From positions 1,050,806 to 1,114,805 of the forward strand of contig JAUJYN010000013.1 in the NCBI GenBank assembly GCA_030737835.1: DNA of 64,000 nucleotides, in the 5' to 3' direction. The stretch comes from Acorus gramineus (Eukaryota > Streptophyta > Magnoliopsida > Acorales > Acoraceae). Shown here piece by piece: positions 16,094 through 62,797 of this stretch; position 1 is the first letter of the stretch, and every line of letters begins with the position of its first letter. Under the pieces are notes generated by a model that worked only from the letters and a program-made list of their open reading frames with translations, was not told the DNA's origin and searched no databases. The translations under genes and the position numbers were made by a program.

Positions 16094-19000
16094 TGTAACG
16101 TCCCACGCTTACACAACAAGAAATTATCCGTTTTGCCCCTAAATGAGCTCACGGCTTTAAAACGCATCTTGGTGTGTAAGAGTTGTGCTCACATATAAGC
16201 AGAGACTATCTCCTCCCATTAGATGATGTGGGACTAAATATCAAACCCTCACCCTCACCCAATTTATGGGCCTCTTGGGACTGTTGGGCATCTCCTCAAC
16301 AGGCTGGGCGTCACAATCACCCCCCTAATGGGCCACATGTCATTGTATGGGGCCGCACCCACTATCGTGAAATGGATAGGCTCTGATACCAATTATAACG
16401 CCTCAGACTTACACAGCAAGAAATTGTCCGCTTTGCCCCTAAATGGGCTCACAGCTTTAAAACGCGTCTTAGTGTGTAAGAGCCGTGCTCACATATAAGT
16501 ACAGACTATCTCCTCCCATTAGGCGATATAGAACTAAACACCGAATGTCACGCCCCGGGCGTCCCCGAGACGCGGCAAGTGTATATAAAATATCAGAATC
16601 TACACAGGAGGTCAATAATATATCATACACAAGCAATCATGACTCACAGACAATAAAAGCAGGGCTGACATGATATATACACCAAATGCGGAAGCTAAGA
16701 CTGAATCTGTAATCAAAACACACTACAGATTCCATACATAATCACATGTCCTGTGAGAGCCAATATACATATAAAGACATCCAAATACAACCAAACGCGT
16801 GCCCCAGCACGGAAAATAATACATACTAGCACAAGGGATGCTGATAGTCTCTGCAACTCGCGGGACGTGGCGCTACTCCGCTACTGATGAAGTCCCTCGG
16901 GGAGCTCCTCCTCCAGATCCGACTCAGATGACACTGTAGAAAATATTATGCGAGGGGTGAGTCACACGCTCAGTGAACGGCACAACCCATACATCACAGA
17001 CAATATTGACCACAACCAGATAATCCTTATCATCCACAATCTCATTACCCAAGCCATAAATAACAACAATTCCTCAACTAGTGGGTCGCTAACGCCAACC
17101 CACTACACCCTCACCCTCACCCTCAATGGGTGACCAAGGATATTGGGACTAACAACACATAACCAGCGGGTCGCTTCCGCCAACCCGCTACACCCTCACC
17201 CTCACCCTTCAATGGGTGACATAGGATTTTGGGACTTACAATCCAGTGGGTCGTCACAACGCCGGCCCACCATACCCTCACCCTCACCCTCACCTTCAAT
17301 AGGTGACCTAGGATGTTGGGACTTAACGGGCAGATAATCATCCATACACAATCCTGTGGGCCGTCGCATCGCCGGCCCACCATACCCTCACCCTCACCTC
17401 TCAACAGGTGACCCAGGCTCTTGGGACTGGCTAGGCTGTTGGTCACCCTTGGTCCACCGATAGTCTCTCCTCACTCCGTAGGTCGTTTGGCCACTCCCAT
17501 GTTCAGCACAGTCCTTCACCAAATCAGGAGGCGCCTACTACTGGGAGCCCATGCACGGGACAACCTGTCTAACGCTGAGGTAGTCTCTACAAGGATCCAA
17601 CGAAGGGAACAGAACAGCCTATCCATCGCATATGATCCACTCGGATCCGCAGACAACACATCATAACAACACTTATGTTCTGAATTCCTCAGAACCCACC
17701 AGGGCGCATAACTACGATGCGGGGAACATGCATAAGGTTATAACAAGGGTGGAATATCATTGGGGAAAGAAACTCGGGAGGGCAGCGTGAGTTCCCGTTA
17801 TAGGACACCCCGACAACCAAACAAGGAACACGGTGTACCCTAACCCGGGTCTCACCGCTGTCCTCGCAAGGCCCCTCCCCTATAATATTCACTATAACAT
17901 GCAATTTAACAAATACTAGCATTTAATTTAATAAATAAACTAGTAGGGCACATGCATCGGTCGGGCTTCCTAACATGGAACCAGGGAACATGGTGCACAG
18001 CTCATATACATATCCTAAGGGTGCAAGTCCCTAACATGCAAGGTCTAGGGTAACATGCATTCTACAATTAAATCATGCTCGCATGATATACATATTACAC
18101 ATGCCAATATTTATCCATGGTGCCCCAGGAGAGGTCGGTATACGCCCAAGTGCGTATAACACCTCTCTACTGGGTTGGATTGTCCCACTCACCAAAGTCC
18201 GGGTCGTCGCGCGACCGTCCGTCCAGATCTGCAAGACAGACATTCAATATGGTGAGAATAATACATAAAATACTCTAAAATACCCCAAACACACAAAACC
18301 CACAACTAAACACCTAACAATCGGGCACACGTGCATACGATCCGCACGCACTCTAACCCGAGCACTCCGGCTACCACCCGCACGGCCGCTCGACCGCCCG
18401 GGTGCACCGCCGCGCCTCAGCCAACGCACCCCGCGCATCGCCGAACCTCCCGGGTGCATCGCGCGCCCCCTGCGCCCCAGCGCAGCCGCCCGCGCGCACC
18501 CCGCACGCCTCGCGCTGGCCCGCGAGCACCCCGCACGCCCCGCGCGCAGCGCCTCGCTCCGCGCGCACACCGCGCGCACCACCTGCCTCTACCCGCACGC
18601 ACCACGCGCGCACCGCCAGCTCCGCCCCCCGCGCGCACCCCGCGCGCACCCTGCACGACGCCCCGTAGCGGTGCCCAGCGCCCAGCACCCTCGGCCAGCA
18701 CCCGGTACCCGCGACCCAGCGCCCAGCGCTCAGCGCCCAGCACCCGGGACCCTCACCCAGCGTCCACGCGCACGCCCGCGCAACACGCGCCCAGCGCGCC
18801 TGCCAGCCTGCCCACGCTGCTGCCCGCGTTGCCTGCCTGCGCGCGTCGCCGAGTGGCCCGAGCACCGCTCGCCTACACGCCCGGGGCACTGCCCGCCTGA
18901 TGCCCGAGCGCCCCTGCCCTGCTCGCCTGCGCGCCCAGCCAGCTCGCCCGGTCTGCTAGCGCGCACAGCCCAGCAGCCTGCTCCGCACGCCTCTCCCTGC

Positions 19001-22146: not shown

Positions 22147-25100
22147 TGTCACGCCCCAGGGCGGCCGTCCCCGGGACGCGGCAAGTGTATATATGATATC
22201 AGTAAACAAGAGTTTAATAACATACTCGCACAACAACTAAAATGACAACACAGATAAAAGCAGGGCTGACATGATATATACACCAAATGCGAAAGCTAAA
22301 AGACTGAATCTGTAATTCAAAAATATATTACAGACTCGATACATAATCAACTGTCCTGTGAGAGCCAAAATATATACAAAGACATCCAAAAACAACACAA
22401 ACGCATGCCCATGCACAAAAAATAATACATACAAGCACAAGGAATGCTGATAGCCTCTGAAACTCGTGGGACGCGGCGCTACTCCGCTACTGATGAAATC
22501 CCTCGGGGAGCTCCTCCTCTGGATCCGACTCAGATGACTCTGGAGAAAAATATTATGCGAGGGGTGAGCCACACGCTCAGTGAACAGCACAACCCATGCA
22601 TCACAGTTTATATTAACCACAACCAGATATTATTAATCCACAATCACATTACTCAAGCCACAAAATGGCAACAACTCCGCAATCCAGTGGGTCGCTACCG
22701 CTAACCCACCACACCCTCACCCTCACCTCTCAATGGGTGACCAAGGATATTGGGACTAACTACACAAAACCAGCGGGTCGCTATCGCCAACCCGCTACAC
22801 CCTCACCCTCACCCCTTAATAGGGTGACCTAGGATATTGGGACTTACAATCCAGTGGGTCGCCACATCGCCGGCCCACCATACCCTCATCCTCACCCCTC
22901 AGTAGGTGACCTAGGCTCTTGGGACTGACTAGGCTGTTGGTCACCCTTGGTCCACCGATAGTCTCTCCCCACTCCGTAGGTCGTTTGGCCACTCCCACAT
23001 TCAGCGCAGTCCTTCTACCAAATCAGGAGGCGCCTACTGATGGGAGCCCCTGCACGGGACGACCTTTCCAACGCCGGGGTAGTCTCTACACGGATCCAAC
23101 GAAGGGAACAGAACAGCCTATCCATCGCATATGATCCACTCGGATCCGCTGACAGCACATCTCTACAACTCTAATGTCTTGAATTCTTTCAGAATTCCAC
23201 CAGCGCGCATAACCAAGATGCGGGGAATACATAATGACAACTACTAACAAGGATGTCATATTAATTATCAACAAAAGTTATAATATTATTGGGACAAGAA
23301 ACCTTGGGAGGGCAGCATGAGGTCCCGATACAGGACATCCCGACAACCAAACAAGGAACACGGAGCACCCTAGCCCGGGTCTCAATGTTGACCTCGCAAG
23401 GCCCCTCCCTATAATATTATACAAGGCATGCTAGCATTTAATTTAATAATCAAACTAATAGGACGCATGCATAGGCCGAGGCTTCCTAGCATGGGAACAT
23501 GGTGCATGGCTCTTACACATAATCCTAAGGGTGCAAGTCCCTAACATACAAGTCTAGGGTAGCATGCATACTACATTTTAATCATGAATCTCATGGATTA
23601 TACATTACTATAGTTAATATAAATCCATGGTGCCCCAGGGGAGGACGGTACACGCCCAAGTGCGTATAGCGCCTCCCGACTGGGTTGGATTGTCCCACTT
23701 ACCGGTATCTGGGTCATCGCGCGACCGTCCGTCAAGATCTGCAAGACAGGTATTTAACTTGGTGAGTAAAATCCTCAAATACCTCAAAATACACAAGAAT
23801 ACTCTAAAAATACCCAACACTCGGGAAAACGTACATACGGCCCGTACGCACGCTAGCCCGAGCACTCCGACTCACTCCCGCCCAACCGGCAACCACCCGC
23901 ACGGCCACCCGCCCTCGGATGCGCCGCCGCGCCTCCGCCCGCGCACCCAGGCGCCCTGCCGAGCCCCTGCCCGCATGCCTGGACACGCCGCCGAGCTCCC
24001 CAGGTGCACCGCGCGCCCACTACGCCTTGCCGCAGCAACCCGCGCGCACCCCGCACGCCCCGCGCTGACCCGCGAGCAAACCGCACGCCCCGCGCGCCCA
24101 GTGCCTCGCCCCGCGCGCACCCCGGGTGCACCTCCAGCCCCGCTGCACGCGCACTCCGCGCGCACCACCAGCCTCGCCCCGCGCGCACCACCCGCTCGCA
24201 CCCACTGCCCTCCTCACCGTGCGCACGCTTGCGCCTCTGCCCAGCGCCCCGCGCGCATGCTCCTCTGCGGTGCCCAGCGCCCAGCGCTCAGCACCCGCGA
24301 CCAGCTCCTAGCACTCAGCGCCCAGCACCCGGGACCCTCACCCAGCGCCCACGCGCACGCCCGCGCAACACACGCCCAGCGCGCCTGCCAGCCTGCTCTG
24401 CGCGCATCGCCGAGTGGCCCGAGCACCGCTCGTCTGCACGCCCGGGCACTGCTCGCCTGATGCCCGAGCACCGCCTGCGCGCCCAGCCTGCCTGTCCGGC
24501 CTGCCAGCGCGCACAGCCTAGCCATCCTACCCGAGCTAGCCCTGCCAGCCTACCCAGCGCGCCCAGCACGCCCAGCGCCATCCCGAGCGCACGCATGCAC
24601 GCGCCCTGCCGCTGCACGCCTGCTGCGCCTGCCTGAGCGCTGCCTATGCTGCCTGCTGCCCGGGACTGCAACCCCCTTCTGTCCGAGCACCTCCACCACC
24701 AACCGCAGGCCTTCCAACGCCTCCGACCGCCTCCAACCACCTCCGACGGCCACCCACAGCCGCCGGCCACCACCCAACCTCAAATCCCCCCCCTAACATA
24801 CATCTAAGCAAGAAAAGAGATGAAAAAGGGCTTACCAAGGGGAGGAAGGGATGTCCGGTTGCTCTCCGCGCACCGAAACCTCTCCCCAAAGGTCTCCAAC
24901 GCCTGGATCTCCCTTGGCCCTTGAAATTGCCCAAATCAGAGGAGAAAAGATAGGGGGAGAAGGGGCAAAACTCACCGGAATTCATATTTGAAACCACCGG
25001 GGTGTAGATCGGGACCCGATCTACCCTTCCTATGCTTTGGGTTTTAAGCTTTGAGGACTCTAGGGGGCTCAAATACTTGAAAAAAAGAGAGGGGGAGAGA

Positions 25101-30033: not shown

Positions 30034-33000
30034 ATGAGTTCAAATGAAGGCTCATCGTACTTATCATCTTCGGATTCTGATGATGAAGGTATTTCTCTAC
30101 CGCCTTGTCTTGATTTTGCAGGAGAAATGGCAGCATGGGACGAGGAAGAGGCGGTGTTACTTCATTTATATGCTTCCAACAATGCTGTCATCTCTCACAT
30201 TCTCGAAGAGGAGGATCAACCAAAACGTAAAGGCTCACTTCATGGACATGCAGTTATAAATCGTGGACGTCAAGAAGGTCATACTCGATTGTGGAATGAT
30301 TATTTTTCTGACAACCCCACCTATGGTGAAAATCTATTTCGTAGGCGATTTCGAATGCGTCGAAGTTTATTCCTCCGAATTGTAAAGGCGGTGAAAGATC
30401 ATGATAATTTTTTCATACAGAAGAAGGATGGTATAGGTAAACTCGGTTTGTCTACTTTACAAAAAGTAACTGCCGTATTTCGAATGTTGGCTTATGGAGC
30501 ATCAGCAGATTCTACTGATGAATATATAAGAATCGGTGAGTCTACTGCAATTTTATGTATGAAAAAATTTTGTCGTGCAATTGTAGAGGTATTCGGAGAG
30601 GAATATTTGAGATCACCCAATACAAATGATGCTACAAGACTGCTACATGTTGGTGAAAAACGGGGATTTCCAGGAATGCTGTGTTATATATGTGTCACTT
30701 TTAGCCTTCTGGTAACCATTGGAGCATTCTGACAGTTTTTGAGTTTTTTTCGTTTTTCGATCGGAACCGCTAAAATTTTAGACTGTTAGCCATCATCCTG
30801 AGTTTGAGGACTTCGATTGAAAATCTAACTGCATATTATGTGTCCTGGTACCATTTCAAGCCACTCACGAAAATTTCATCGAATTCCGATAACGTTTCAG
30901 AATTTCACAGTTCCGGGGCGTATCCAGGTTTTGACTAAGTGAGAAGTCATTGGGAGAGTTGACTCGGTCAAAGTGAGCCCATGACTTGGTCAACCCCTTT
31001 TGTTTTTTTGTGTGGTTGGATTGACCCAAGTCAAAGCTCACTTAAAGCTTCTCTAATCCTCTCTTAACCCTAATTAAACCTAGTTAACCCTAATCTAAGT
31101 GTGGGGATTATATATAAGTGGAATCTAAAATATCTCCCCCATTATTCATCTTCTTCTCCAATTGATTTTCTCTCTCCCCCTCTCTCTTTTTCCACCATAT
31201 GACCTAGCTAGAAGGCTTGGATCCAAAAACCCAAAGAAGAGAAAGGAAAGGTGAGCTCCCGATCTATCCACCGGTGGTCTCGAATTCGAGTTCCCACGAG
31301 TATGGCCCCCTCTCACACCCTCTTTTCTCCTCTGATTTCAGCCCCTTTGAAGGCTGAAAGAGATCTTGGTGGTGGAGGTCTTTGGGGAGGTGTTTCGGTG
31401 CACGAAGAGCTCCTGGTCCCCTTCCTTTCCTTTCCTCTCCTAGGGTAAGCTTTCTTCCTCTTTTTCTTGCTTAGATGCATGTTAGGAGGGTGGTTTTGGG
31501 TGTGTGGTGGCTGTTGGTGGCTGTTGGTGGTGATTGGTGGTGGTTAGTGGCCATTGGTGGCCGGTGAGGGGTGGTAGGGTGGCTCGGGCAGGATGGTGGG
31601 TTGCCTCGGGTAGGCCGGCAGCACAGGCAGCACAGGCAGCGCAGGCAGGCAGGCTGGCGAGCAAGGTAGGCAGAGCAGCTGGCGGGGCACGCGCGCGTGC
31701 GGGCGGGTGGAGCAGGAGCGTGCGGGTGCTGCGCGCTGGGCGCCGTGCGCCGGCGTGCACGCGGGGCGCTGCATAGAGGCGCAGTGCGGCGTGCACAGGG
31801 GGCCGCGTGCGGATGCTGCGCACAGGGGGCCGTGCGGGGGCGTGCGCGCGGAGCGCTGCGCAGAGGCGCAAGCGTGCTGTGCGCGCGCGGTGAGGTGATG
31901 GGACGCTGGGCGAGGCGATGGGTGCACGCGGGGCGAGGTGATGGCGCGATTAGGCGAGCGGTGGTGCGCGCGGGGTGCGCGCGGGGCGAGGCGCTGGGCG
32001 CAGGGCGTGCGGGTGTGCGCGCGGGTTGCTGCGCTGGGGCGCAGTGGGCGCGCGGTGCACCCGGGAGGCTGGCGGCGTGTCCTGGCGTGCGGGCAAGGGC
32101 TCGGCAGTGCGCCTGGGCGCGCGGGCTGAGGCGCGGCAGTGCGCCCGGGGCGGGTGGCCGTACGGATGGTTGCCGGGGGGTATGGGAGTGAGTCGGGGTG
32201 GCTCGGACTCGCGTGCGTACAGGCCGTATGTACGCTTGTCCGAGTATTGTGCATTTTTAGTGTATTTTTATGGTATTTGTGTATTTTACTCACCAAGTTG
32301 ATTACCCTGTCTTGCAGATCTTGACAGACGGTCGCGCGACGATTCAGTTATCAGTGAGTGGTACAATCCAACCCAGTAGGGAGGCGCTATATTCACTTGA
32401 GCGTATACCGTCCTCCCCTGGGGCACTGCAATTGATATTAACTTGTTAATGTGTAATCCATGCAAGCATGATTAGTGTGTAGAATGCATGCCACCCTAGA
32501 CTATGTATGTTAGGGACTTGCACCCTTAGGATATGTGTAAGAGCCATGCATCCTGTCACCCTGTTATCATGCTAGGAAAGCCTCGACCTATGCATGCGTC
32601 CTATTAGTTTAATTTATTAAATTAAATGCAAACTTATGATATTTTTAGCATGCCTTGGGGAATATTAAGGGGGCCTTGTGAGGTCAACATTGAGACCTGG
32701 GCTAGGGTACTCCGTGTTCCTTGTTGGGTTGTCGGAATGTCCTATATCGGGACCTCAGGTTGCCCTCCCAAGGTTTCTTTTCCTCATTATTATCTTATAT
32801 ATTCCCCGCATCGTGGTTATGCGCCCTGGAGGAATTCTGAAGAATTTAAGACATTAGAGTTGTTGAGATGTGTTGTCGGCGGATCCGAGTGGATCATATG
32901 CGTATGGATAGGCTGTTCTGTTCCCTTCGTTGGATCCGTGTAGAGACTGCCCCGGCATTAGAAAGGCTGTCCCGTGGAGGGCTCCCATTAGTAGGCACCT

Positions 33001-35116: not shown

Positions 35117-38100
35117 ATGTCTACAAGCATGAATTTGGGCACGAAAACTTCTAGTCGCGGTCGATCATTCCCTATGGAAGAAGACCAAATTATATGCAAT
35201 GCATGGCTTGAGATCTCTCAAGACCCAGTGACAGGTAACAATCAGAAAAAAGATAAATTATGGGAGCGTATTTCTGTTGCATATCATGCTCGTAGGCCAA
35301 ATTATTGCGTCGAGTATTGCACAACAAAATCTCTCTCATGTCGTATGGCAACAATAATGAAAGCCATCTCCAAATTTCGAGGGTGTGTTCGAGCAGTTGA
35401 ACGTCTTTGTCACGCCCCAGGGCGGCCGTCCCCGGGACGCGACAAGTGTATATATGATATCAGTAGTCTAAACAGGAGATCAATAATATACCCTAAACAA
35501 CATCAACAATGACAACACAGACAACAATGAGGCTGACATGATATATACACAAATAGCGGAAGCTAAAAGGCTGAATCTGTAATTCAAAGACATATTACAG
35601 ACTCGATAGATAATCAACTGTCCTGTGAGAGCCAATATATACAACGACATCCAAATATAATACAAACGTGTGCCCAAGCACAGAATACAATACATACAAT
35701 CAAAAAGGGATGCTGATAGCCTCTAACACTCGCGGAATGTGGCGCTGCTCCGCTACTGCTGAAGTCCCTCGGGGAGCTCCTCCTCCAGATCCGACTCAGA
35801 TAACACTGGAGAAAAAATATGTGCGAGGGGTGAGCCACACGCTCAGTGAATAGCACAACCCATGTATCACAATTCATATTAACCACAAATAATTATTCAA
35901 AGCCTCTAAGTGGTAGGAACTACACAATTTAGTGGGTAGCTACATCGCCGACCCACCACACCCTCACCCTCACCCTCCAATAGGTGACAAAGGATATTGG
36001 GACTGACTAGGCTGTTAATTACCCTTGGTCCACCGATAGTCTCTCGTCCACTCCGTAGGTCGCCTGGTCTACTCCCACATTCAGCACAGTCCGTCACCAA
36101 ATCAGGAGGTGCCTAATGATGGGAGCCCTCTGTTAGGACGGCCTGTCTAACGCTGGGGCAGTCTCTATATGGATCCAACGAAGGGAACAGAACAGCCTAT
36201 CCACACGTATACAATCCACTTGGATCCGCGGTATTCCTTAACTGGAAAAAGAAACCTTGGGAGGGCACCATGAGGTCCCGATATAGGATATCCCGACAAC
36301 CGAACAAGGAACACGGAGTACCCTAGCCCGGGTCTCAACGCTGACTTCGCAAGGCCCCTTAATCCAGAGAAGGGAGACTCCACTAATGTCATGAATTCTT
36401 CAGAATTCTTCGAGGGCGCAAAACCAAGATGCGGGGAACATATATAATAACAACAAGTGATAATATTCTCTAACGCATGCTCGCATTTAATTTAGCTGAA
36501 TTAAACTAGGTGGGAACATGCACAGGTCGGGGCAAGGTGTCTAGGCATGCATAGGCCTCTAACATGATGTAAGGGTGCGTATCCCTAGCATACAAAGTCT
36601 AAGGTGGCATGGATATATCATATTTATCATGCATGCATAGCTAAGGTGGCATGGATACAACAAAATATTCATGCAAGGCATAGTTTACAATTTATACAAG
36701 TTAATATGCAACTATGGTGCCCCAGGGGAGGGCAATACACTCCTAAGTGTATAGAACGCCTCCCTACTGGGTTGGATTGTCCCACTCACCAATACCCGGG
36801 TCGTCGCGTGACCGTCCGTCAAGATCTGCAAGACAGGTATTTAACACGGTGAGTAAAATACACAAATACATACAAAAATACACTAAAAATACCCAACACT
36901 CGGACAAGCGTACATACGGCCCGTACGCACGCGAGCCCGAGTGCCCCGACTCACTCCCGCACCACCGGGCAGCCATACGCACGGCCACCCGCCCCGGGCG
37001 CACAACCGCGCCCCAGCCCGCGCGCCGAGACACACTGCCGAGTCCCCCGCCCGCATGCCCGGACACGCTGTCGAGCCCAGCCCGCGCTCCCAGACACACC
37101 GCACGCCCGGGCGCACGCACACGCGCGCCTGTGCGCACCGCGCGTCCAGCCCTGGATGCACCCGCGCGCACTGCGCCCCAGCGCAGCGCCCCGCACGCGC
37201 ACCCGCACGCACTGCGCCCCAGCGCAGTACCCGCACGCACTCCCCGCTCACGCCCGCTCACCTCACCGCGCGCACAGCACGCACTGTGCATCTACGCAGC
37301 GCTCCGCGCGCACGCCCCCGCACGGCGCCCAGCGCGTAGCACCCGCACGCGATGCCCGCGCGCACCCCCGGCACTGCGCCCAGCGCGCAGCACCCGCGCG
37401 CACGCGCGCGTGCCCTGGCAGCCCGCCCAACAGCGCCCCTGCCCTGCGCCTGCCAGCCTGCCCTGCCTACCTGCCTGCCGCCTGCGCCTGCCTGCCTATA
37501 CGCGCCGCTGAGCCCGCATGCACCCGAGCCAAACTCAACCACCCCATCAACCACAAACAACCCCCCAACAACCCCCCAAACCACCAAGCTCCCCTAGCAC
37601 ACCCATAAACACCTCCTAACATGCATCTAAACAAGAAAAGGAAGGAAAGAAACTCACCCAAGGAGAGGAAAGGAAGGGAGGGAACTTCGGGTGCTCTTCG
37701 CGCACCGAAACACCACCTCCAAGGCCACCACCACCAAGACCTCTTCTCAGCCAAAGAGGGGCTGAAAACAGAGGTAAAAAGGGGCTATAAGAGGGGGTCA
37801 CACTTGAGGGAACTCGAATCCGAGACCATGGATGGATAGATCGGGTCCTTACCTATCTTTTCTCTTCTTAGGGTTTTTTATTTCAACCACCTTAGCTAGG
37901 TCAAATCAAGGAAATAAGGAGAGGGGAGAGAGAGATTTTGGTGGAGAAGATGATGAATAGTGGGGTGCAACTATTTCTAGGCGTGGGGATTAAAGGGGAC
38001 CACACACACACCTCACACACTCACCACTTGAAATTAGATTAAGTTAAGCTAGGTTAGATTAGGTTTAGGTGATCTAAGTGCACTTTGACCCTAGTCAACC

Positions 38101-42280: not shown

Positions 42281-45200
42281 TGTTATATATGTGTCACTTT
42301 TTTGGCTTGTTGGTAACCATTGGAGCATTTTGACAGTTTTTTAGTTTTTTTCATTTTTTGATCGGAACCGCAAAATTTTGGACTGTTAGCTATCGTCCTG
42401 AGCTAGAGGACTCCGATTGAAAATATAACTGCATATTATGTGTCCTGGTGCCATTTTAAGCCACTCACGAAAATTTCATCGAATTCCGGTAACGTTTCTG
42501 AAATTTCGCAGTTCCGGGGCGTATCTGGGTTTTGACCGAGCGAGAAGTCATTGGGAGAGTTGACTCGGTCAAAGTGGGCCCAAGGACTTGGTCAAACCTT
42601 TTTGTCTTTTTGTGTGGTTGGGTTGACCCAAGTCAAATCCCACTTAAACCTAATTAATCAAGCCCTAATCTTGATTAACCCTAATTAATCATGGTTTGAC
42701 TTTATATAAGTGAGATCTAAAAATGGTTGCCACTATTCATCATCTTCCACCTTTTGTTTTCTCTCTCTCCCTCTCTCAAAAACCTTCATTTGATCCCCTT
42801 AGAGCCCTCAAACCTTAAAACCTAAAGCATAGAGAGTGTAGATCGGGTACCGATCTACACCCCGGTGCTTTCAAATCCGGATTCCGGCCTACCTAGCCCC
42901 TTCTTCCGCCCTCTCTTCTCCTCAGATCCGAGCCATTTCGGAGGTGGGAGTAGGTCTTGGTGGTAGAGACCGTTGGGGGAGCGTTTCGGTGCGCGGAGAG
43001 CAACCGGACATCTCTTCATCCCCTTGGTAAGCTCTTTTTCCTCTTCTTCTTGGCTTAGATGTATGTTAGGAGGGGGGTTTTGGGGTTGGATGGTGGTCGG
43101 CAGCTGTGGGAGGCTGTCGGAGGTGGTTGGGGGCGGTCGGAGGCCTTGGGTGGCCGGTGGTTGGTGGTGGAGGTGCTCGGGCAGGGAGGGTTGTTGTCTC
43201 GGGCAGGGCAGCAGCACAGGCGCAGCAGGCGGAGCCGCTGGCAGGGCGCGCGCGTGCGTGCGTGCGGGCGTGCGCTCGGGGGGAGCTGGAGGCCAGCAGG
43301 GCGCGCGTGCTGGGCGCTGGACGTGCTGGGCAGGCGGGTGCTGGGCGTGTGGGTGCTGAGCATGCGGGCGCTGGGCGTGCTGGGTGCTGGTCGAGTAGGC
43401 GCTGCGTGCAGGGCGTCATGCAGGCGGAGCGCTGCGCAGGGGCGCAGGCACGCTGTGCGCGCGCGGCGAGTCGGTGGAGTGCTGGGCGAGCCGGTGGTGC
43501 GCGCGGGGTGCGCGCGGAGCGCGGCGAGGCAGCGGAGGTGCGCGCGGGGCAAGGCGCTGGGCGCGCGGGGTGCGGGGTGTGCTCGCGGGCCAGCGCGGGG
43601 CGTGCGGGTGCGCGCGGGCTGCTGCGATGGGGCGCAGTGGGCGCGCGGTGCACCCGGGTGGCTCGGCGGCGTGTCCAGGCGGCGGGCAGGGGCCCGGCGG
43701 TGCGCCTGGGTGCGCGGGCTGAGGCGTGGCGGTGCATCCGGGGGCGGGTGGCCGTGCGGGTGGTTGCCGGGGGTGCGGGAGTGAGCCGGGGTGCTCGTGT
43801 TAGCGTGCGTACGGGGCCGTATCACGTTTGCCCGAGTGTTGGGTGTTTACTTGTTTGTTGTTGTGTATTTTGTGGTATTGTGGATTTTTACTCACCAGTT
43901 GATACCCTGTCTTGCAGATCTCGATGGACGGTCGCGCGTCGACCCGACTTCCGGTGAGTGGGACAACCCAACCCAGTTTGGGAGGCGCTACATGCACTTG
44001 GGCGTGTACCGTCCTCCCCTGGGGCACATAGTCAATATTAGTTGTTGTAATCCATGCAAGCATGATTTATGTGTAGAATGCATGCCACCCTAGACTTGTA
44101 TGTTAGGGACTTGCACCCTTAGGATATGTGCATGAGCCGTGCATCCTGTCACCTCGTTATCATGCTAGGAAAGCCCCGACCTATGCATGCGTCCTATTAG
44201 TTTGATTTATTTAATTAAATGCAAACTCGTTATATTATTAGCATGCCTTGGGGAATATAAGGGGGCCTTGCGAGGTTAACATTGAGACCCGGGTTAGGGT
44301 ACTCTGTGTTCCTTGTTTGGTTGGCGGGATGTCCTACATCGGGACCTCAGGTTGCCCTCCCAAGGTCTCTTTTCCTCCTTTTCTGTCTTATATATTTCCC
44401 CGCATCTGGTTATGCGCGCTGGTGGAATTCTGAAGAATTCGAGACATTAGTAGTAGAGATGTGCTGTCAGCGGATCCGAGTGGATCATATGCGATGGATA
44501 GGCTGTTTTGTTCCCTTCGTTGGATCCGTGTAGAGACTACCTCAGCGTTAGAAAGGTTGTCCCGTGCAGGGGCTCCATCAGTCGGCACCTCCTGATTTGG
44601 TAGATGGACTGTGCCGAATGTGGGAGTGGCCAAACGACCTACGGAGTGGGGAGAGACTATCGGTGGACCAAGGGTGACCAACAGCCTAGTCAGTCCCAAG
44701 AGCCTATGTCACCTATTGAGGGGTGAGGGTGAGGGTATGGTGGGCCGGCGATGTGACGACCCACTGGATTGTGTAAGGATGATTATCAGCCTATTAAGTC
44801 CCAACATCCTTTGTCACCTATTGAGGGGTGAGGGTGAGGGTGAGGGTATGGTGGTTCGGCGATGTACGAACCCCCGGATTTGTGTTGTTTATGCCACTTT
44901 GAGGCTACTGACTTGATAAATGTGGTTAATATAAACTGTATGCATGGGTTGTGCTATTCACTGAGCGTGTGGCTCACCCCTCGCATAATTATTTTCTCCA
45001 GTGATTACCGAGGAGGACTTGAAGGAGGAGCTTCCCGAGCGACTACACCAGTAGCGGAGTAGCGCCACGTCCCTCGAGTTTTGAGGCCATCAGCATCCTT
45101 CTCTTTCATTGTATGTATATATTTCTGTGCTTGGGCACCTAGTATGGACTGTATTTGGATGGATGTATTGTGGATATATTGGCTCTCACAGGACATATGA

Positions 45201-45399
45201 TTATGTATCGAGTCTGTAGTATGTTTTGATTACAGATTCAGTCTTTTAGCTTCCGCATTTGGTGTATATATCATGTCAGCCCTGCTTTTATCTGTGTTGT
45301 CATTTTAGTTGTTGTTTGTGGTATATTGTTGATCTCCTGTTTACTGATATCATATATACACTTGCCGCGTCCCGGGGACGGCCGCCCTGGGGCGTGACA
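42281..45399 (+). repeat. 5' LTR (3119 bp)
   Basis: TGTTATATATGTGTCAC..GGGGCGTGACA. Contains, in order: W-box-rich upstream region, TATA box, C/T-rich leader, possible 5' splice site CTTGGTAAGC (about 43023-43032), CpG-rich tract (about 43200-43790), 36-nt block 43918-43953 followed by GTGAGTG, two GGGGTGAGGGTGAGGG repeats (44718 and 44825 regions), 3' splice-site motif ending CAG at 44999-45001, and a short frame to TAG 45052-45054. Confidence 0.9.
42525..42720 (+). promoter_or_regulatory. LTR promoter: W-box cluster and TATA box
   Basis: Six TTGAC/GTCAA cores occur between about 42530 and 42645 (TTTTGACCGAG, GTTGACTCGGTCAAAG, CTTGGTCAAAC, GTTGACCCAAGTCAAAT), the core bound by WRKY factors. 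A TATA box TTTATATAAG lies at 42711-42720, and a C/T-rich CACTATTCATCATCTTCC start-site context about 25-30 bp further on. The same arrangement occurs in the 3' LTR (TATA at 53992-54000). Binding is inferred from motif only. Confidence 0.6.
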
Positions 45400-45404
45400 A
45401 AAGT

Positions 45405-45416
45405 TGGTATCAGAGC
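45405..45416 (+). other. Primer-binding site (initiator tRNA-Met)
   Basis: TGGTATCAGAGC, complementary to the 3' end of plant initiator tRNA-Met, 5 nt after the 5' LTR end. Primes minus-strand DNA synthesis. Confidence 0.95.
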
Positions 45417-45518
45417 CTGGTCCTGTCAGAGCCAATTGTCTTCTTTTCGTAGAGATGAGTCCTAGGATTTCTATATGCGTATTCTGATCCTAGTGTCTGG
45501 TTTTCTTAGGTTGCTGAT

Positions 45519-47443
45519 ATGCCTCCTCGCAGAGGACGGCGCGGACGTGGTCCCTCTCGACCCTTGGAGGTCTCCGGACCTGCCAGAGTCGAGGATGCTA
45601 TTGGTGAGTCCTCAGCCGTGAGGCCAGGATCAGCGCAGGAGCCTCCTGCCTGGGAGCGCGCGTTTGCGCGGATAGCTGATTTGGTGGAGACGCAGACCAG
45701 GGCATTGGAGGCCCAGACCAGAGTATTGGCAGATCAGGCACGGGAGATTCAGGAGCTGTGGGCGGCCCGCGAGGCAGTTCCGCAGGTTCCCTTGGTGGCA
45801 GATCCACCTGTGGTACCCGATGTACCCCCAGTCCCCGTGGTGGTTCCGGCGGTCAGAGTTCAGGACCCGCAGGAGAGGGAGGTGGGGCTTGAGGCTGCAG
45901 CGAGGGTGCAGCAGAGTGGCCTCTCAGCCTTTCTGAAGCTCCACCCACCCGAGTTCCAGGGTCAGACGGAGGACCCCCTTGCTCCAGAGAGATGGTTGAT
46001 GGAGGTGGATACCATCTTCTCGACCATGCTTTGCACCGACCGCCAGCGAGTCTCCCTGGCCACGTTTATGCTGAAGGGTAGCGCCGCCGACTGGTGGGCT
46101 ACTAGATCAGTGGACATCCCGGAGGGATTGGAGCAGCTCACATGGGCGGGATTCAGGAGATATTTCTTGGAGGAGTATTTCCCCTTCTCGACGCGACAGA
46201 TAGTGATGCAGGAGTTTGAGCAGCTGACTCAGGGCACTATGTCTGTCGCTGACTACTCCACGCGCTTTACGAGGCTGTCCAGATTCGCTCCAGCTTTGGT
46301 GATGGACGAGGAGACGAGGTGCCGTCGATTTGAGCTCGGTCTCAGCAGCGCCATTCGGGTGCACGTCACCTCCCAGGCTTTCTCGAGGTACTCCGACTTA
46401 GTGTCTCGAGCGAAGACCGTCGAGAGAGATCTTGGGATCCTCGTGAGGGCTCCGACCTCGTCGGCAGATCAGAGGCCATCTAGGAGCCAGGACCAGGGTC
46501 AGCGGAAGAAGAAGAGGTCCCGTTTTGATCGGACAGCGGTTGCCTCTTCTCCAACTGATGCGGTGCCAGTGCGAGGTCCAGCACCCATCGCAGCAGTGCC
46601 GGTCCAGGCAAGGTGACCAAAGACGAGGCGCTGTTATCACTGTCAGCGCGTCGGGCATATCTTGTATAATTGCCCTGACGCAGGCCGACCCAGAGTGATG
46701 CCTCAGCAGCAGCAGCAGTTGCAGCAGCAGCCGTTTCAGCAGCAGCAGCAGCCTCAGCGCCAGCCGCAGCAGCAGCCTCAGCGTCAGCAGCAGCAGCCAC
46801 AGGGTGGCCGTGCTGATCAGAGGAGGCAGCCAGCGCAGCAGGCGAGGCGTGCCCCTGCTCCTCAGCCACAGTTCGTGCAGGGCCGAGTGGCAGCGCTTTC
46901 GACAGAGGAGGCCCAGGCATCAGGCAGCGTGGTCAGAGGTACTGTTCAGATCTCCCAGCTTCCTGCTTATGTATTGTTTGATTCCGGAGCCACCCACTCG
47001 TTCGTGTCTCCCGCTTTCGCGAGACGGACGGGTGTGGCGTCTGCTCCTTTAGATGCCATACTAGAGATATCATTGCCCGTGGGAGACCGTATTCTCCTCA
47101 GTTCTGTGTACCGAGGGTGTACGGTAGAGGTCGCGGAGCATGAGTTTCCGGTGGAGCTGGTGGAGCTCGCGATGACGGATTTTGATGCCATCCTGGGAAT
47201 GGATTGGCTTGCAGCTAGTCATGCCAGCATCGACTGTTTCGCCAAGTCGGTGTCGTTCCACCTTCCGGGTCGGAGGTCCTTCCAGTTCGTGGGCGATCGA
47301 GACGTAGCTCCTTTGGGGTTCGTGTCGTCCATGCAGGCGTGGAGACTCCTTCAGGGTGGATGCGAGGGCTTTCTAGCTTATATTGCTCAGGAGGATGCAC
47401 CGCTGCGGGCAGATATCAGTCAGACTCCGGTCGTGGCAGGGTA
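45519..47443 (+). pseudogene. gag-protease region, one nonsense codon, cut by LTR insertion
   Basis: ATG at 45519 (MPPRRGRRGRGPSRPLEV) follows a TTTTCTTAG acceptor-like sequence. Capsid-type region: LKLHPPEFQG, PERWLMEVDTIFSTM, LKGSAADWWATR, YFPFSTRQIVMQEFEQL, DYSTRFTRLSRFAP. A TGA at 46614-46616 stands where the related gag at 55111-56142 has a tryptophan. The same frame then continues with zinc knuckle CYHCQRVGHILYNC, a long glutamine-rich stretch (46698-46805) and the aspartic protease motif LFDSGATHSFVS (about 46974). It stops at the nested LTR insertion (target GGGTA, 47439-47443). Gag forms the virus-like particle; protease matures the polyprotein. Confidence 0.9.
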
Positions 47444-50400
47444 TGTTATATATGTGTCACTTTTAACCTGCTGGTAACCGTTGGAGCGTCCTGGCAGTTT
47501 TTAAAATTTTTAGGGTTTTTGGTCGGAACCGCTTATTTTCAGACTGTTAGCTATCGTCTGAGTTAGAGGACTCCGATTGGAAATCTAACTGCATATTTGG
47601 TGTCCTGGTGCCATTTTAGACCTCCCACGAAAATTTCATCGAATTCTGGCATCGTTTGCAAAAATTTCGCAGTTCCGGGGCGTATCCGGGTTTTTAAGTC
47701 GCGCGCTATATAAAAGAAATCAAAAATCACCCCTACACTATTCATCATCCCTCCCGACGTGATTTCCCCTCTCCCCTTCTCCGTTTTTCTTCCGTTTGAG
47801 CCCCCTCCACCCCTCAAAATCGAAAACCTAAAGCACGGGAAGTGTAGATCGGGTCCCGATCTACACTCCAGTGTTTTCAAATCCGAATTCCGACGATCCT
47901 AGCCTCTCCGACCTCCTCTCTCTCTCCTCTGTTTCGAGCCAAATCGAGGGCCGTGATAGATCGGGGCGTGGGAGAGCCTTTGAGGAAGGTTTCAGCGCGC
48001 GGAGAGCTACCGAACGTCTTCCCCTACCCCTCGGTAAGCCTCCTTTCCCTCCTTTTCTTGCATAGATGAATGCTAGGAAGGTGGATTGGGTGTTTGGGGG
48101 TGGTCGGCGGCAGTGGAGGTGGTCGGAGGGCGGTCGGAAGTGGTTGGAGGGTGGTCGGTGGTCAAGGGAGAGGTGGTGGTGGCGCTCGGGCAGTGGCAGG
48201 TCGTCCGGGCCAAGCAGCAGCAGCAGCAACAACCAAGGCGGCGCCAGGTCGGGTGCGCGCGGGCAGGCGCGTGTGCGTGCGCGGGCGCGCGTAAGCGCGG
48301 CGTGCGCGCGAGGGCGCGCGGGCCTGGTGCAGGGTGCTGGCCGGTGCTGGGCGAGCAGAGGCCGGTGCTGGGCGAGCTGGGCGGCTGATGCGCGTGGAGC
48401 GGGTCGCGCGGGTGCGCGGATGGCGTGCGCGAGGCCGTGGCGTGCGCGAGGCCGTGGCTGAGGGTGCGGATGGCGTGCGCGAGGCCGTGGCGTGCGCGAG
48501 GCCGTGGCTGAGGGTGCGTGGCGGTGCGCGGAGGCCGCGGTGAGGCCGCGGTGGTGCGCGGAGGTGCGGCGAGGTGCGTGCGAGGTGCGCGCGAGGTGCG
48601 GCAAGGTGTGCGAGGAGCGTGCGAGGTGCGCGCGAGGTGGCGGAGGTGCGCGCGGGGTGCGCGCGGGGCGGGGCGCTGCGCGCGGGGGCGTGCGGGGTGC
48701 CCCGGGAAGCTCGGCGGTGTGTCTCGGCGGCGGGCAGGGGCCCGGCGGTGCGCGGGCCGAGGCGCGGCGGTGCGCCTGGGCGGTCGGGTGGCCGTGCGGG
48801 TGGTGGCCGGCTGTGCGGGTGGTTGCCGGGGGGTGTTGGGTGTCTATTTGTGTGTGTTATGTATTTTGGGGTCATTATGGATTTATTCTAACCAGTGAAT
48901 GTCTGTCTTGCAGATCTAGACGGGCGGTCGCGCGACGACCCCGATTCTGGTGAGTGGGACAATCCAACCCAGTAGAGAGGTGTTATACGCACTTGGGCGT
49001 ATACCGACCTCTCCTGGGGCACCGTGGATTATATTAACCTGTAATAATATGTATTGCATGTGAGCATGATGAAAATGTAGAATGCATGCTACCCTAGGCT
49101 TTTATGTTAGGGACTTGCACCCATAGGATAGGTGTAAGAGCCATGCACCATGCCTCCTGCTTCATGTTAGGAAACCTCGACCTATGTATGCGTCCTACTA
49201 GTTTATTTATTAAATTAAATGCTAGTACTTGTTAAATTGCATGTTATAGTGAATATTATAGGGGAGGGGCCTTGCGAGGACAGCCGTGAGACCCGGGTTA
49301 GGGTACACCATGTTCCTTGTTTGGTTGTCGGGGTGTCCTATAATGGGAACTCACGCTGCCCTCCCGAGTTTCTTTCCCCCAATGATATTCCACCCTGTTA
49401 TAACCTTATGCATGTTCCCCGCATCGTAGTTATGCGCCCTGGTGGGTTCTGAGGAATTCAGAACGTTAGAGTTGTATGTTTGGTATGATTATTAGCATGA
49501 GTAGTGAATATTATAGGGGAGGGACCTTGCGAGGACAGCGGTGAGACCCGTGTTAGGGTACTCCGTGTTCCTTGTTTGGTTGTCGGGGTACCCTGTATCG
49601 GGAACTCACGCCGCCCTCCCGAGTTTCTTTCCCCCAGTGATATTCCAACACTGCTTTTGATTGTACTTGTTTCCCCGCATCTTGGTTATGCACGCTGGAG
49701 GAACTCTGAAGAGTTCATGACATTAGAATTGTTGAGGCGTGTAGTCGGCGGATCCGAGTGGATCATATGCGTATGGATAGGCTGTTCTGTTCCCTGCGTT
49801 GGATTCGGTAGAGGCTACCCTCAGCGTTAGACAGGGCCTTCCTGACAGAGGGCTCCCATTAGTAGGCACCTCCTGATGAGGTGACGGACTGTGCTGAATA
49901 TGGGAGTAGACCAGGCGGCCTACGGAGTGGAGGGAGAGACTATCGGTGGACTAAGGGTGACCAACAGCCTAGTCAGTCCCAAAATCCTATGTCACCTTTG
50001 GAAAGGTGAGGGTGAGGGTGAAGTGGGTTGGCGATGAGCGACCCGCTGGTTTTGTTTGTGAATGATTGTAAGTCCCAATATCCTGAGTCCCTTGTTGAGG
50101 GGTAAGGGTGAGGGTATGATCTGGATTATGGAAAAATTGTGGATTAGAATGGATTAATATGTTGTGGTCAATATTGTCTGTGATGCATGGGTTGTGCCGT
50201 TCACTGAGCGTGTGGCTCACCCCTCGCATATGTTTTTCCCCAGTTGCCACTGAGCCTGAGCTGGAGCCGGAGCAGCAGTTGGAGCTTTCCGAGGGATTTC
50301 TTCAGTAGCGGAGCAGCGCTACGTCCGCGAGTACCAGAGGCTGTCAGCATCCCTTTCCTTGGCTGTATGTATTTTATTTCCGTGCTTGGCACGTGTTGGT

Positions 50401-58070: not shown

Positions 58071-61012
58071 TATTATATATGTGTCACTTTTAGCCTTCTG
58101 GTAACCATTGGGACATTTTGGCAGTTTTTTGGTTTTTTCGTTTTTCGATCGGAACCGCTAAAATCTTGGACGTTTAGCTATCACCCTGAGTTTGAGGGCT
58201 CCGATTGGAAATCTAACTACATATTATGTGTCCTGGTGCCATTCCAAGCCACTCACAAAAATTTCATCGAATTCCGGTAATGTTTCAAAATTTTGCAGTT
58301 TCGAAGCGTATCCGGGTTTTGACCGAGCGAGAAGTCATTGAGAGACTTGACTTGGTCAAATGTGGGCCCATGACTTGGTCAACCCCCTTTGTTTTCTAGT
58401 GTGGATGGGTTGACCCAAGTCAAAGTGCACTTAAACCTCACTAATCCTAGCCTAAACCTAATTAGGGCTAATCTAAGTGTGGGTGTGAGAGTGTGTGGTG
58501 GGTGTGTGAGTATAAAGAAATCCCACGACTACAACATCCCCACTATTCATCATCTTCTCCAAAATTTCTCTCTCTCTCTTTAAAACCCCCATATGATCTA
58601 GTAGAAGGTCTTGAAATCAAAAACCCTAAGAAGAGAAAGGATAGGTAAGAACCTGATCTGCCTTCCTATGGTCTCGGATTCGAATTCCCTTGTGTGTGAC
58701 CCCTTCTCATACCCTCTTTTCTCCTCTGTTTTAGCCCCTTTTTGGCTGAGTTGGAGATCTCGGTGGTGGTAGTCTTGGAGGCGGTGCTTCGGTGCGCGAA
58801 GAGCACCCGTTCTTCCTCCCCTTCTCTTCCTCTCCTAGGGTAAGCTTTCTTTCTTTCCTTTCCTTGTTTAGATGCATGTTAGGAAGTGTTTTTGGGGTAT
58901 GCATGGCTGCTGGTGGCTGTTGGTGGCGGTTGGTGGCTGTTGGTGGCCATTGGTGGCCATCGGGGAGGTGGTAGGGTTGTCTCGGGTAGGATGGCAGTGC
59001 AGGCAGCGCAGGCAGGCGGGCTGGCAGGCTGGGCAGGCAGAGCAGGCTGGCAGGGCATGCGCTCGGGCGTGCGCGCGGGTGGAGCAGGAGTGTGCGGGTG
59101 CTGCGCACTGGGCGCCGTGCGGGGGCGTCCGCACGAGGTGCTACGCAGAGGCGCAGTGCGTGCTGTGCGCGCGGGGCCGCGTGCGGGTGCTGCGCGTAGG
59201 GGGCCGTGCATGGGCGTGCGCGCGGAGCGCTGCGAGGAGGCGCAGTGCATGCTGTGCGCGCGCGGTGAGGGGAGCGGGTGGTGCGCGCGGGGTGCTGCGC
59301 TGGGGTGCAGGGCGTGCGGGTGTGTGTACGAGTTGCTGCGCTGGGGAGCAGTGAGCGCGCGGTGCACCCAGGGGGCTCGGCAGCGGGTCCGGGCATGTGG
59401 GCAGGGGCTCGGCAGTGCGTCTGGCCATGCGGGCTGGGGCGCGGCTGTGCGCCCGGGGCGGGTGGCCGTGCGTACGGCTGCCCGGGGGTTCGGGAGTGAG
59501 TCGGGGTGCTCGGACTCGCGTGCGTACGGGCCGTATGTACGCTTGTCCGAGTGTTGGGTATTTTAGTGTATTTTTGTATATATTTGTGTATTTTACTCAC
59601 CGAGTTGATTACCCTGTCTTGCAGATCTTGACGGACGGTCGCGCGATGACCCGGTTATTGGTGAGTGGGACAACCCAACCCAGTAGGGAGGCGCTATATG
59701 TTCTTGGGCATATACCGTCCTCCCCTGGGGCACCGTAGTTTAATATTAACCCGTTTAATATGTAATCCATGCAAGCATGATTAATATGTAGTATGCATGC
59801 TACCCTAGACCTTGTATGTTAGGGACTTGCACCCTTAGGATATGTGTAAGAGCCATGCATCCTGTCACCATGTTTTCATGCTAGGAAGCCTCGACCTATG
59901 CATGTTCCCATTTAGTTTAATTTATTTAAATCAAATGCGAGCATATGACTATTAGCATGCCTTAGGGAATATTATAAGGGGCCTTGCGAGGTCAACATTG
60001 AGACCCGGGCTAGGGTACTCCGTGTTCCTTGTTTGGTTGTCGGGATGTCCTATATCGGGACCTCATGGTGCCCTCCCAAGGTTTATTTTCCCGATAATGT
60101 TATAATATATGATTCCCCACATCTTAGTTATGCGCCCTAGAGGAATTCTGAAGAATTCATGACATTAGAGTTGATGAGAGGTGTTGCCGACAGATCCGAG
60201 TGGATCGTATGCGTATGGATAGGCTGTTTCTGTTCCCTTCGTTGGATCTGTATAGAGACTGCCCCAGCGTTAGAAAGGCCGTCCCGTCAGAGGGCTCCCA
60301 TCAGTAGGTACCTCCTGATTTGGATTTGGACTGTGCTGAAGTGTGGGAGTGGCCAAGCGGCTACGGAGTGGAGGAGAGACTATCGGTGGACCAAGGGTGA
60401 TTAACAGCCTAGTCAGTCCCAATATCCTATGTCACCTATTGAGGGGTGAGGGTGAGGGTGTGGTGGGTCGGCGATGTTGCGACCCACTGGATTTGTGCAT
60501 TTCCTGCCACTTAGAGGCTTTGATTTAATTGTGGTTAATATAAATTGTGATGCATGGGTTGTGCTATTCACTGAGCGTGTGGCTCACCCCTCGCATAATT
60601 ATTTTCTCCAGTTATCACTGAGTCAGATCTGAAGGAGGAGCTCCCCGTGGCACTTCATTAGTAGCGGAGCAACGCCACGTCCCGCGAGTGTTAGAGGCCA
60701 TCAGTATCCTTTCTTTTGATTGTATGTATTATATTTTCGTGCTTGAGCACTCGTTTGTATTATACTTGGATGTATTGTGTATATTTGGCTCTCACAGGAC
60801 AGTTGATTATGTATCGAGTCTGTAATGTGTTTTTGATTTACAGATTCAGTCTTTTAGCTTCCGCTATTTGTGTATATATCATGTCAGCCTCTTTGTTGTC
60901 TGTGTTGTCATTTTAGATGTTATTTAGAGTATGTTATTGACCTCCAGTTTAGACTGCTGATATCATATATACACTTGCCGCGTGCCGGGGACGGCCGCCC
61001 TGGGGCGTGACA
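58071..61012 (+). mobile_element. Solo Ty3/gypsy LTR, sense (S10, 2942 bp)
   Basis: Exact target duplication AAGGG (58066-58070; 61013-61017). The first bases read TATTATATATGTG, so the terminal TG has mutated to TA; the end is the usual GGGGCGTGACA. 36-nt block 59625-59660, 5' splice-like CCTAGGGTAAGC (about 58834), CpG-rich tract about 59040-59530, terminal short frame ending TAG at about 60660. Confidence 0.95.
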
Positions 61013-62797
61013 AAGGGGTTTGCCTCTGCTCTCACGCAGAAATAATCCCAAGGCACATAACCCAATATGCGGTTCATATACACGACTAGCACGGGTAGGC
61101 CTAGCTTAATGCCCCAACTACCGGCTTTGCCCCAGGGGAGGACGGTACACGCCCAAAGCATGTAGCGCCTCCCAAACTGGGTTGGGTTGTCCCACTCACC
61201 GGAAATTGGGTCGACGCGTGACCATCCGTCGGGATCTGCAAGACAGGGTATTAACTAGTGAGTATAAATCCACAATTACCCAAAATACACAAATAAATAC
61301 TTAAAACCCACAACAAACACCCCACACTCGGGCAAACGTGCACACGACCCGTACGCACGCTAACCCGAGCACTCCGGCAACCACCCGCACGGCCACCCGA
61401 CCGCCCGGGTGCACCGCCACGCTTCAGCCCGCGCACCCCGCGCACCGCCAGCACCTCGCCACGCCTCGCGCGCACCACAGCCGCCTCACCGCGCCCCGTG
61501 AGCACCGCACTGCCTCCCGCACGAACTCTCCTCGGCCATCACCTCGCGCACGCACCACCCCTGCCTCGGCCATCACCTCGCGCACGCACCACCCCTGCCT
61601 CGGCCATCACCTCGCGCACGGGCCACTGCACGCCGCGCCCCCGCGCGCACCCTGCACAACCTCCCGCACGCGCACTGCCCTCGGCCATCACCCCCTCCCC
61701 AGCACCCGCACGCCCAGCACCGCCGACCCACGTGCATCGCCGCTCGCACCTCTCCCCGCACCAGCCGCTCGACCAGCCCCTCCCGGGTGCACTAGCGTGC
61801 AGCACGCCCAGCACACCCGCGCGCAGCTGCTTGACCCGCTCCTCGCACTTGACCCGCGCGACCAGCTCCTCGCGCACAGACCCGCGCGACCAGCCCGACC
61901 AACACGCACGCCCTGCACTCCCGCGCACAGCACGCCCTGCACGCGCGCCCTGCTGGCCACCAGCTCCCCCCGAGCGCACGCCCACGCGCGCACGCCCGCG
62001 CGCTGCCTGCGCTGCTGCCTGCTGCCCGGAACAGACCCCACTGCCCGAGTACCTCCACCACCACCCAATGGCCTCCGACAGCCTCCGACCGCCCCCAACC
62101 ACCTCCGACGACCCCCCCACTGCCGCCGACCACCTCCCAAACCCAAAAACCACCTCCTATCAAGCATCTAAGCAAGAAAAAAGAGGGAAAGAAGCTTACC
62201 AAGGGGGAGGAAGAGGTGACCGGGTGCTCTCCGCGCACCGAAACCTTTCTCAAAGGTCCTCCTACGCCCCGATCTATCACGGCCTTCAAAACGGCCCAAA
62301 TCAGAGGAGAAAGAGGGGAGGACGGGGAGGCTAGGATCGTCGGAATCGGGTTTTGAAGGTACCGGGGTGTAGATCGGGAGCCGATCCGATCTACACTTCT
62401 TAGGTTTTAGGTTTTTGGTTTTGAGGGGTCTAAGGGCCTCAAATGGAAGAAAAAGAGAGAGAGATGAGAGAGGGAAAGTTGGTAGGGATGATGAATAGTG
62501 TTTTCAAAAATTAGATCTCACTTATTTATAGTGTGCGACTTAAAAACCCAGATACGCCCCGGAACTGCGAAATTTTGGAAACATTGCCGGAATTCGATGA
62601 AATTTTCATGAGTGGCTTAAAATGGCACCAGGACACATAATACGCAGTTAGATTTTTAAATCAGAGTCCTCTAACTCGGACGATAGCTAACAGTCCAAAA
62701 TTATGCGGTTCCGATCGAAAAATGCAAAAAAAAATTTAAAAACTGCTAAAATGCTCCAATGGTTACCAGCAGGCCAAAAAGTGACACATATATAACA
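61013..62797 (-). mobile_element. Second-subfamily antisense LTR, right part (S11)
   Basis: Continues 57171-58070 beyond S10 and ends with the LTR start (..GTGACACATATATAACA, 62797). It contains its own 36-nt block (61200-61235, minus), a CpG-rich tract (61380-62030) that includes a short tandem repeat (CACCCCTGCCTCGGCCATCACCTCGCGCACG-type units near 61550-61620), and a TATA/W-box-like region. The right flank begins TGCTC; the matching left duplication is lost. Confidence 0.85.

Follow-up and report, generated by a model that had tools for sequence, protein, structure and literature searches.

A likely 36-nucleotide micro-exon in the long terminal repeats of an Acorus gramineus retrotransposon, and the genomic record of leader splicing

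The host element and its repeated 36-nucleotide block

A 64,000-nucleotide stretch of Acorus gramineus DNA (GenBank assembly GCA_030737835.1, contig JAUJYN010000013.1, positions 1,050,806 to 1,114,805 of the forward strand; hereafter ‘the window’) carries a Ty3/Gypsy retrotransposon whose long terminal repeats (LTRs) contain a 36-nt block bounded by sequences that resemble splice sites. An earlier note on this DNA had proposed that the block is a micro-exon located between two introns of a spliced LTR transcript. Coordinates given below are those of the window, and counts described as genome-wide were made in the whole assembly (398.6 Mb), with reversed patterns serving as controls.

The 5′ LTR of the element (TGTTATATATG ... 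GGGGCGTGACA, 3.12 kb) occupies positions 42281..45399 on the + strand, and the 3′ LTR, as judged by reading the sequence, starts at 53573 on the same strand, just behind a polypurine tract. The LTRs have TG...CA ends, and the direct repeats at 42299-42598 and 53590-53889, which belong to the two LTRs, agree at 98%. A primer-binding site (TTGGTATCAGAGC, 45404..45416, +) follows the 5′ LTR, and further downstream is gag (45519..46616, +; Retrotrans_gag, E 7.9e-18). The internal region, scanned in five separate pieces, encodes gag, aspartic protease, reverse transcriptase with RNase H, and an integrase zinc-binding domain. We assign the element to Ty3/Gypsy because reverse transcriptase precedes integrase. 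A Pfam Chromo match at the integrase end (E 0.0003, 21.1 bits) falls below the cut-off of 25.1, and the element may belong to the Tekay-like clade of chromoviruses.

All ten 36-nt blocks listed in the earlier note are present in the window, each exactly 36 nt long. Five are on the + strand (503..538, 32318..32353, 43918..43953, 48914..48949 and 59625..59660), and the one at 48914 belongs to an LTR that lies nested inside the 42281 element, in its internal region. The other five are on the − strand (14413..14448, 18193..18228, 23703..23738, 36790..36825 and the diverged copy at 61200..61235). As the note had stated, CTTGCAG stands before each block and GTGAGTG, or GTAAGTG in the copy at 23703, after it. 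Its descriptions of the surroundings also proved accurate. An upstream leader with a terminal GTAAG or GTGAG donor was located with a short model for nine of the ten blocks, and for five by the word CCTTGGTAAG; the leader of block 503 would fall before the start of the window. A downstream acceptor of the TTTTCTCCAG type was likewise located for nine blocks, and that of the diverged copy at 61200 was not found within 2.6 kb.

The same arrangement is abundant in this genome, where the block occurs between fixed outside anchors at 8,101 places (reversed control, 0). Among 100 matches listed from these 8,101, the length measured by span is 36 nt in 91, 35 nt in three, 37 nt in five and 29 nt in one, and one 35-nt form has 204 occurrences genome-wide. 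A sample of 60 LTRs was also drawn through an 18-base word near the downstream acceptor, approximately 1 kb from the block; this word occurs 11,114 times genome-wide (reversed control, 0). The block with a preceding CAG was located in 55 of the 60 sampled LTRs, with no match in L046, L047 and L051 and no CAG in L015 and L053. Among 51 of these copies resolved by script, the block measures 36 nt in 48, 37 nt in two and 29 nt in one. The constant length on which the earlier note was built is therefore largely true as the dominant state, and it is not universal.

When the 55 copies are aligned and divided into 36-nt steps, the numbers of indel-bearing copies are 25, 54 and 49 in the three upstream steps, 4 in the block, and 8, 11, 42, 19 and 30 in the downstream steps. 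The predicted scarcity of indels in the block is evident relative to the upstream flank (4/55 versus 49/55), but the adjoining downstream step (8/55) is nearly as stable, although the block is the most length-stable stretch of all. A further prediction, that the block would also be less divergent, did not hold relative to the downstream flank, whose first 36 nt are less substituted (mean minority fraction 0.057 versus 0.121 in the block). Many block copies carry the palindrome GTCGCGCGAC, which is disrupted by a G/A change at position 17. In view of the evidence on splicing presented below, an LTR leader in which this block forms an internal micro-exon is the most likely reading, and we refer to the block as exon 2.

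Intron 1 is absent from numerous genomic copies

In the 5′ LTR of the 42281 element, a TATA box is located at 42703..42710 (+), and transcription probably starts about 25-30 nt further on, at the motif CACTATTCATC. Exon 1 would occupy 42732..43026 (+), ending in CCCCTTG before GTAAGC; its 3′ end is fixed by the intron-less copies described below, and its 5′ end is approximate. Intron 1 (43027..43917, +) separates this leader from exon 2 and ranges from 602 to 1361 nt in 37 copies. Donor 1 reads GTAAG or GTGAG in 53 resolved of the 60 sampled LTRs, a figure that is partly circular in that donor 1 and acceptor 1 were both found with words containing them. The mean G+C content of intron 1 is 0.71 in the 37 copies, and it carries short imperfect repeats. 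This G+C-rich composition differs from the U-rich plant introns described in the available text of PMC3735527.

If spliced RNA is reverse transcribed, the new LTRs must be without the intron. The predicted junction of exon 1 with exon 2, CCCCTTG joined to ATCTNGACGGNCGGTC, has 48 matches genome-wide with up to three mismatches (<=3), and the reversed control has none. Among the 40 matches that were read, 38 are LTRs that lack intron 1 from the donor GT to the acceptor AG and have exon 2 directly after the junction. The remaining two (L108 and L109) are false matches in which intron 1 is still present, and two of the other eight (C5:17914503 and C66:681087) are doubtful by their letters. Exon 2 of the 38 intron-less copies is followed by GTGAGTG in 36 cases (two of them after a 37-nt exon), by GTGATGG in one and by ATGAGTG in one. 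A wider pattern in which the junction was left open gave 18 matches (control, 0), and the junction reads TTG/ATCT in 18 of 18. Exon 1 ends in CCCCTTG in 18 of the junction copies, TCCCTTG in 7, CCCTTGG in 7, CTCCAAG in 2, and four other forms once each; these variants resemble the donor variants of intron-containing copies.

That the intron-less copies do not derive from a single event is suggested by a tree of these 38 and 57 intron-containing copies, which requires 22 parsimony changes of state. With weak nodes collapsed the count is 22-24, although polytomies were treated as hard and 22 is not a strict lower bound. The positions of the copies provide a second line of evidence. Among 45 of the 48 junction matches (leaving out C5:17914503, C8:16936840 and C11:5394048), there are eight cases of same-strand neighbours less than 20 kb apart, and seven of these are spaced by 5.1-7.5 kb, like the two LTRs of one element. 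Among the four copies whose element ends were examined (L009 to L012), L010 and L011 form such a pair with a polypurine tract 5′ of L011, and L012 is a solo LTR flanked by a 5-bp target duplication.

These copies, their spread in the tree and the seven spaced pairs constitute a DNA record in favor of the first junction proposed in the earlier note (43026/43918). We conclude from this record that intron 1 is spliced and that the spliced RNA has been reverse transcribed repeatedly, a conclusion supported about as strongly as DNA alone permits.

The probable intron 2 carries conserved splice sites and a predicted hairpin

Intron 2 (43954..45001, +; GTGAGTG ... TTTTCTCCAG) would separate exon 2 from exon 3, which forms the U5 part of the LTR (45002..45399, +) and holds a possible frame ending at TAG 45052-45054. 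Donor 2 reads GTGAGT in 52 of 55 copies, GTAAGT in one and GTGTGT in one, and it is deleted in one. Acceptor 2 ends in CAG in 68 of 69 copies and in TAG in one, behind a pyrimidine tract that varies in length and letters; this count is partly circular, since the sample was drawn through a word ~20 nt away and nine window copies were located through the acceptor itself. We consider splicing of intron 2 probable. Of the two introns that the earlier note had placed around the micro-exon, the first stands, and the second (43953/45002) is suggested by the conservation of its splice sites, with no intron-2-less copy found.

A candidate alternative acceptor for donor 2 lies outside the LTR. This acceptor-like site (GTCTGGTTTTCTTAG/G, 45495..45510, +) ends nine bases before the gag ATG, and its counterpart TTTTCTTAG/G is intact, as judged by reading, in 15 of 16 sampled 5′ LTRs as well as in the window.

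A conserved RNA hairpin is predicted near the start of intron 2 (43972..44023, +). The first 107 nt of this intron in the 43918 copy have a folding z-score of −2.86, and among 52 distinct sequences the hairpin positions are paired in 96.4% of cells, versus 37-58% when the partner strand is slid. The prediction draws its support from this overall pairing and from two pairs that change on both sides, and other pairs change via G-U. The region 42283-45530 gave no Rfam match at E values up to 1. The 42281 element itself was apparently inserted (42240-42281) in an oppositely oriented LTR copy, within its intron 2 hairpin region, and junction copy L010 begins directly behind a similar hairpin in another LTR.

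The segments of the leader differ in their content of AUG triplets, as evident by counts on 37 copies (15 without a strict start motif were left out). Exon 1 has a mean of 0.41 AUGs versus 3.22 expected, and 26 of the 37 copies have none. In 53 copies, the final 250 nt of this exon likewise carry a mean of 0.74 versus 3.11 expected (none in 37), and in the 38 intron-less copies 0.55 versus 3.2 (none in 27). Intron 2, in contrast to this AUG-poor exon, has a mean of 34.8 where 20.6 are expected from base composition. By these counts exon 1 looks like a leader that is scanned by ribosomes, and exon 3 does not.

A proposed mechanism and its alternatives

We propose that the LTR specifies a three-exon leader, and that removal of intron 2 excludes an RNA from reverse transcription by depriving it of either the hairpin or the primer-binding site. 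As a whole, this model seems to us likely on the sequence data. Transcription would begin near the TATA box, ~450 bases into the LTR, and removal of intron 1, to which the genomic copies testify, joins the AUG-poor exon 1 (~295 nt) to the 36-nt exon 2. Intron 2, with its strong hairpin at the start and its many AUGs, would be removed from only part of the RNAs, with splicing either to the LTR acceptor at 45001/45002 or to the acceptor-like site just before gag. RNAs spliced at intron 1 only would keep the primer-binding site and the hairpin, could still be reverse transcribed, and would give rise to new LTRs without intron 1. Those spliced at intron 2 would stay out of reverse transcription and act as messengers. 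Splicing from donor 2 to the gag-proximal site would yield a leader with few AUGs and without the primer-binding site, and the missing site would by itself account for the retention of intron 2 in genomic copies. With acceptor 2, inside the LTR, the hairpin would be removed instead.

In the latter case the hairpin might serve as a packaging signal. In retroviral leaders the packaging signal lies downstream of a splice donor and is therefore missing from spliced RNA. A donor with a structured element behind it is common to both systems, and a packaging role for the LTR hairpin is proposed here by analogy.

Besides the partial circularity of the splice-site counts, several results weigh against this model. 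No match for the junction of exon 2 with exon 3 was found genome-wide with two patterns, which fit 11/55 and 35/55 sampled copies respectively. The junction of exon 1 with exon 3 also gave 0 matches genome-wide, with a pattern that fits 12/55 copies. The wide intron 1 pattern fits only 15/55 sampled copies, yet gave its 18 matches, and from these fits (35/55 versus 15/55) it follows that loss of intron 2 is much rarer than loss of intron 1, or absent. The same absence is expected if intron 2 is never spliced, which leaves intron 2 and both of its acceptors unproven. The junction of exon 2 with the gag-proximal site likewise has 0 matches genome-wide, a result that is uninformative because such an RNA would be without the primer-binding site. 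Exon 3 and the sequence following it are not AUG-poor (7.05 versus 7.24 expected), which argues against exons 1, 2 and 3 together being the scanned leader of gag. Covariation in the hairpin is mild, with changes on both sides in two of its 20 pairs (27 cells), a number not above that of the shuffled control. Finally, sampled copy L053 has CAA rather than CAG at acceptor 1.

Some of these observations would be accommodated if only intron 1 were spliced, the block were simply the start of the next exon, and conservation of GTGAGTG had some other cause, such as its place in the hairpin region. The failure to find intron-2-less copies with a pattern fitting 35/55, when the intron 1 pattern fits 15/55 and gives 18 matches, is in keeping with this explanation, as is the conservation of the 72 nt 3′ of the block. 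However, donor 2 is GTGAGT or GTAAGT in 53/55 copies, a variable polypyrimidine tract ends in CAG or TAG at acceptor 2 in 69/69, and intron 2 is AUG-rich where exon 1 is AUG-poor, and we judge the explanation unlikely. Far less credible still is the idea that intron 1 was lost from the intron-less copies through deletion at the DNA level, such as between short repeats, and not through splicing. Intron 1 of the 43918 copy does contain short tandem repeats that could delete easily. However, the missing segment has GT/AG borders in 18/18 matches to the wide pattern and in 38/40 retrieved matches, and the intron is absent from both members of the seven spaced pairs. Moreover, repeat-mediated loss via the CTTG common to the end of exon 1 and the acceptor would leave CCTTGCAGATCT, whereas CCTTGATCT is observed. 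Random deletion as the origin of these copies was rejected in view of the borders, the several donor types and the paired LTRs.

A different function for the block can also be envisioned, in which exons 2 and 3 are the end of a translated frame and the 36-nt length is held to preserve that frame. Exons 2 and 3 joined in silico typically read LDGRSRDDP..VITESDLKEELPERLHQ followed by TAG, and 47 of 60 copies share one frame to the same stop, with 2 ending one codon earlier. The 71 distinct 36-nt exons have no stops in this frame and 8 and 47 in the other two. An excess of third-position variation is seen in the first 29 nt of exon 2 (permutation p ~0.01), and pN/pS is 0.53 versus 1.04 and 1.38 in the other frames; the exon 2 entropy and pN/pS values derive from 36-nt exons only. 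However, the stretch 3′ of the stop gives a pN/pS of 0.45 in one frame, and the periodicity loses significance when all of exon 2 (p 0.28) or exons 2 and 3 together (p 0.22) are considered. Furthermore, the frame is broken by the 35-, 37- and 29-nt exons and by a lineage whose exon 3 has lost 11 nt, and such frame-breaking forms are frequent. Exon 1 was rejected as the start of the frame, as the five window leaders translated show no conserved in-frame upstream AUG and exon 1 length varies by 1 nt between copies. We consider this use of the block improbable. About as doubtful is its extended form, in which the LTR would be a complete three-exon transcription unit, repeated thousands of times, with a promoter, two introns and a terminal exon that has a stop and possibly a poly(A) region. 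Its fully spliced RNA would specify a short peptide, conserved and acidic, whose frame spans exons 2 and 3, and the RNA keeping intron 2 and the hairpin would be the genomic template. If true, this would represent an LTR-encoded product together with a splice-based switch between message and genome.

Seven of the 69 rows (L018, L026, L027, L041, L044, L045 and L054) form the lineage with the 11-nt deletion, which by comparison with the 28-residue type falls just inside exon 3.

Relation to known spliced retroelements

A close parallel to the loss of intron 1 is found in the spliced integrated retrotransposed elements (SpIREs) of human LINE-1, which also arise by splicing in the 5′ untranslated RNA and reverse transcription to give genomic copies without the intron, according to the available portion of PMC5860796. 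As with SpIREs, the intron is absent here between consensus splice sites, and hallmarks of retrotransposition are present (seven pairs, a polypurine tract and a 5-bp duplication). The available portion of that source terms SpIREs generally evolutionary dead ends. Unlike them, the case described here concerns a plant LTR element with its intron in the LTR itself, and both LTRs of the pairs are without this intron.

Plant LTR elements are generally intron-free, with Ogre and EVADE named as exceptions in the accessible sections of PMC12786077, and Bagy2, Ogre and CRR are mentioned as spliced in those of PMC3735527. Barley BARE1, also a plant LTR element, has spliced and unspliced RNAs with separate roles, and its intron of 104 nt is in the gag region (PMC3735527, as far as its text was available). 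In contrast to BARE1, the introns described here are in the LTR, and copies lacking intron 1 exist. Ogre, EVADE, Bagy2 and CRR resemble the Acorus element in being plant LTR elements with spliced RNA. Their splices are located between or within coding regions, or make env RNA, and none is described in an LTR in the portions of these two sources that were available (PMC12786077; PMC3735527). Among the titles and abstract openings listed from the literature searched, whose coverage largely excludes subscription journals, none concerns an intron inside a plant LTR, and this is weak evidence of absence.

The copies lacking intron 1 provide a DNA-only record of leader splicing in a plant retrotransposon, repeated many times in one genome. 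There is also a sharp asymmetry between neighboring introns, in which intron 1 is lost via reverse transcription and loss of intron 2 is not seen. This asymmetry opens to testing the general question of how spliced messages of an LTR element are excluded from reverse transcription. As the LTR word occurs at 11,114 places, many insertions may also offer neighboring host genes a promoter and ready splice donors.

Nested and neighboring repeats in the window

The 3′ LTR of the 42281 element is seemingly interrupted in intron 1 (54320-56116), and an inverted gag copy lies beyond (55230-56116). A further leader with a donor is present on the − strand at 62972-63203, to which no exon 2 block has been assigned. 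Repeats of ~300 nt on both strands are clustered at 16002-16541, 20110-20688 and 20989-21771, and these resemble nested miniature LTR (TRIM-like) elements. One of the clustered repeats has TTGGTATCAGAGCC adjoining it.
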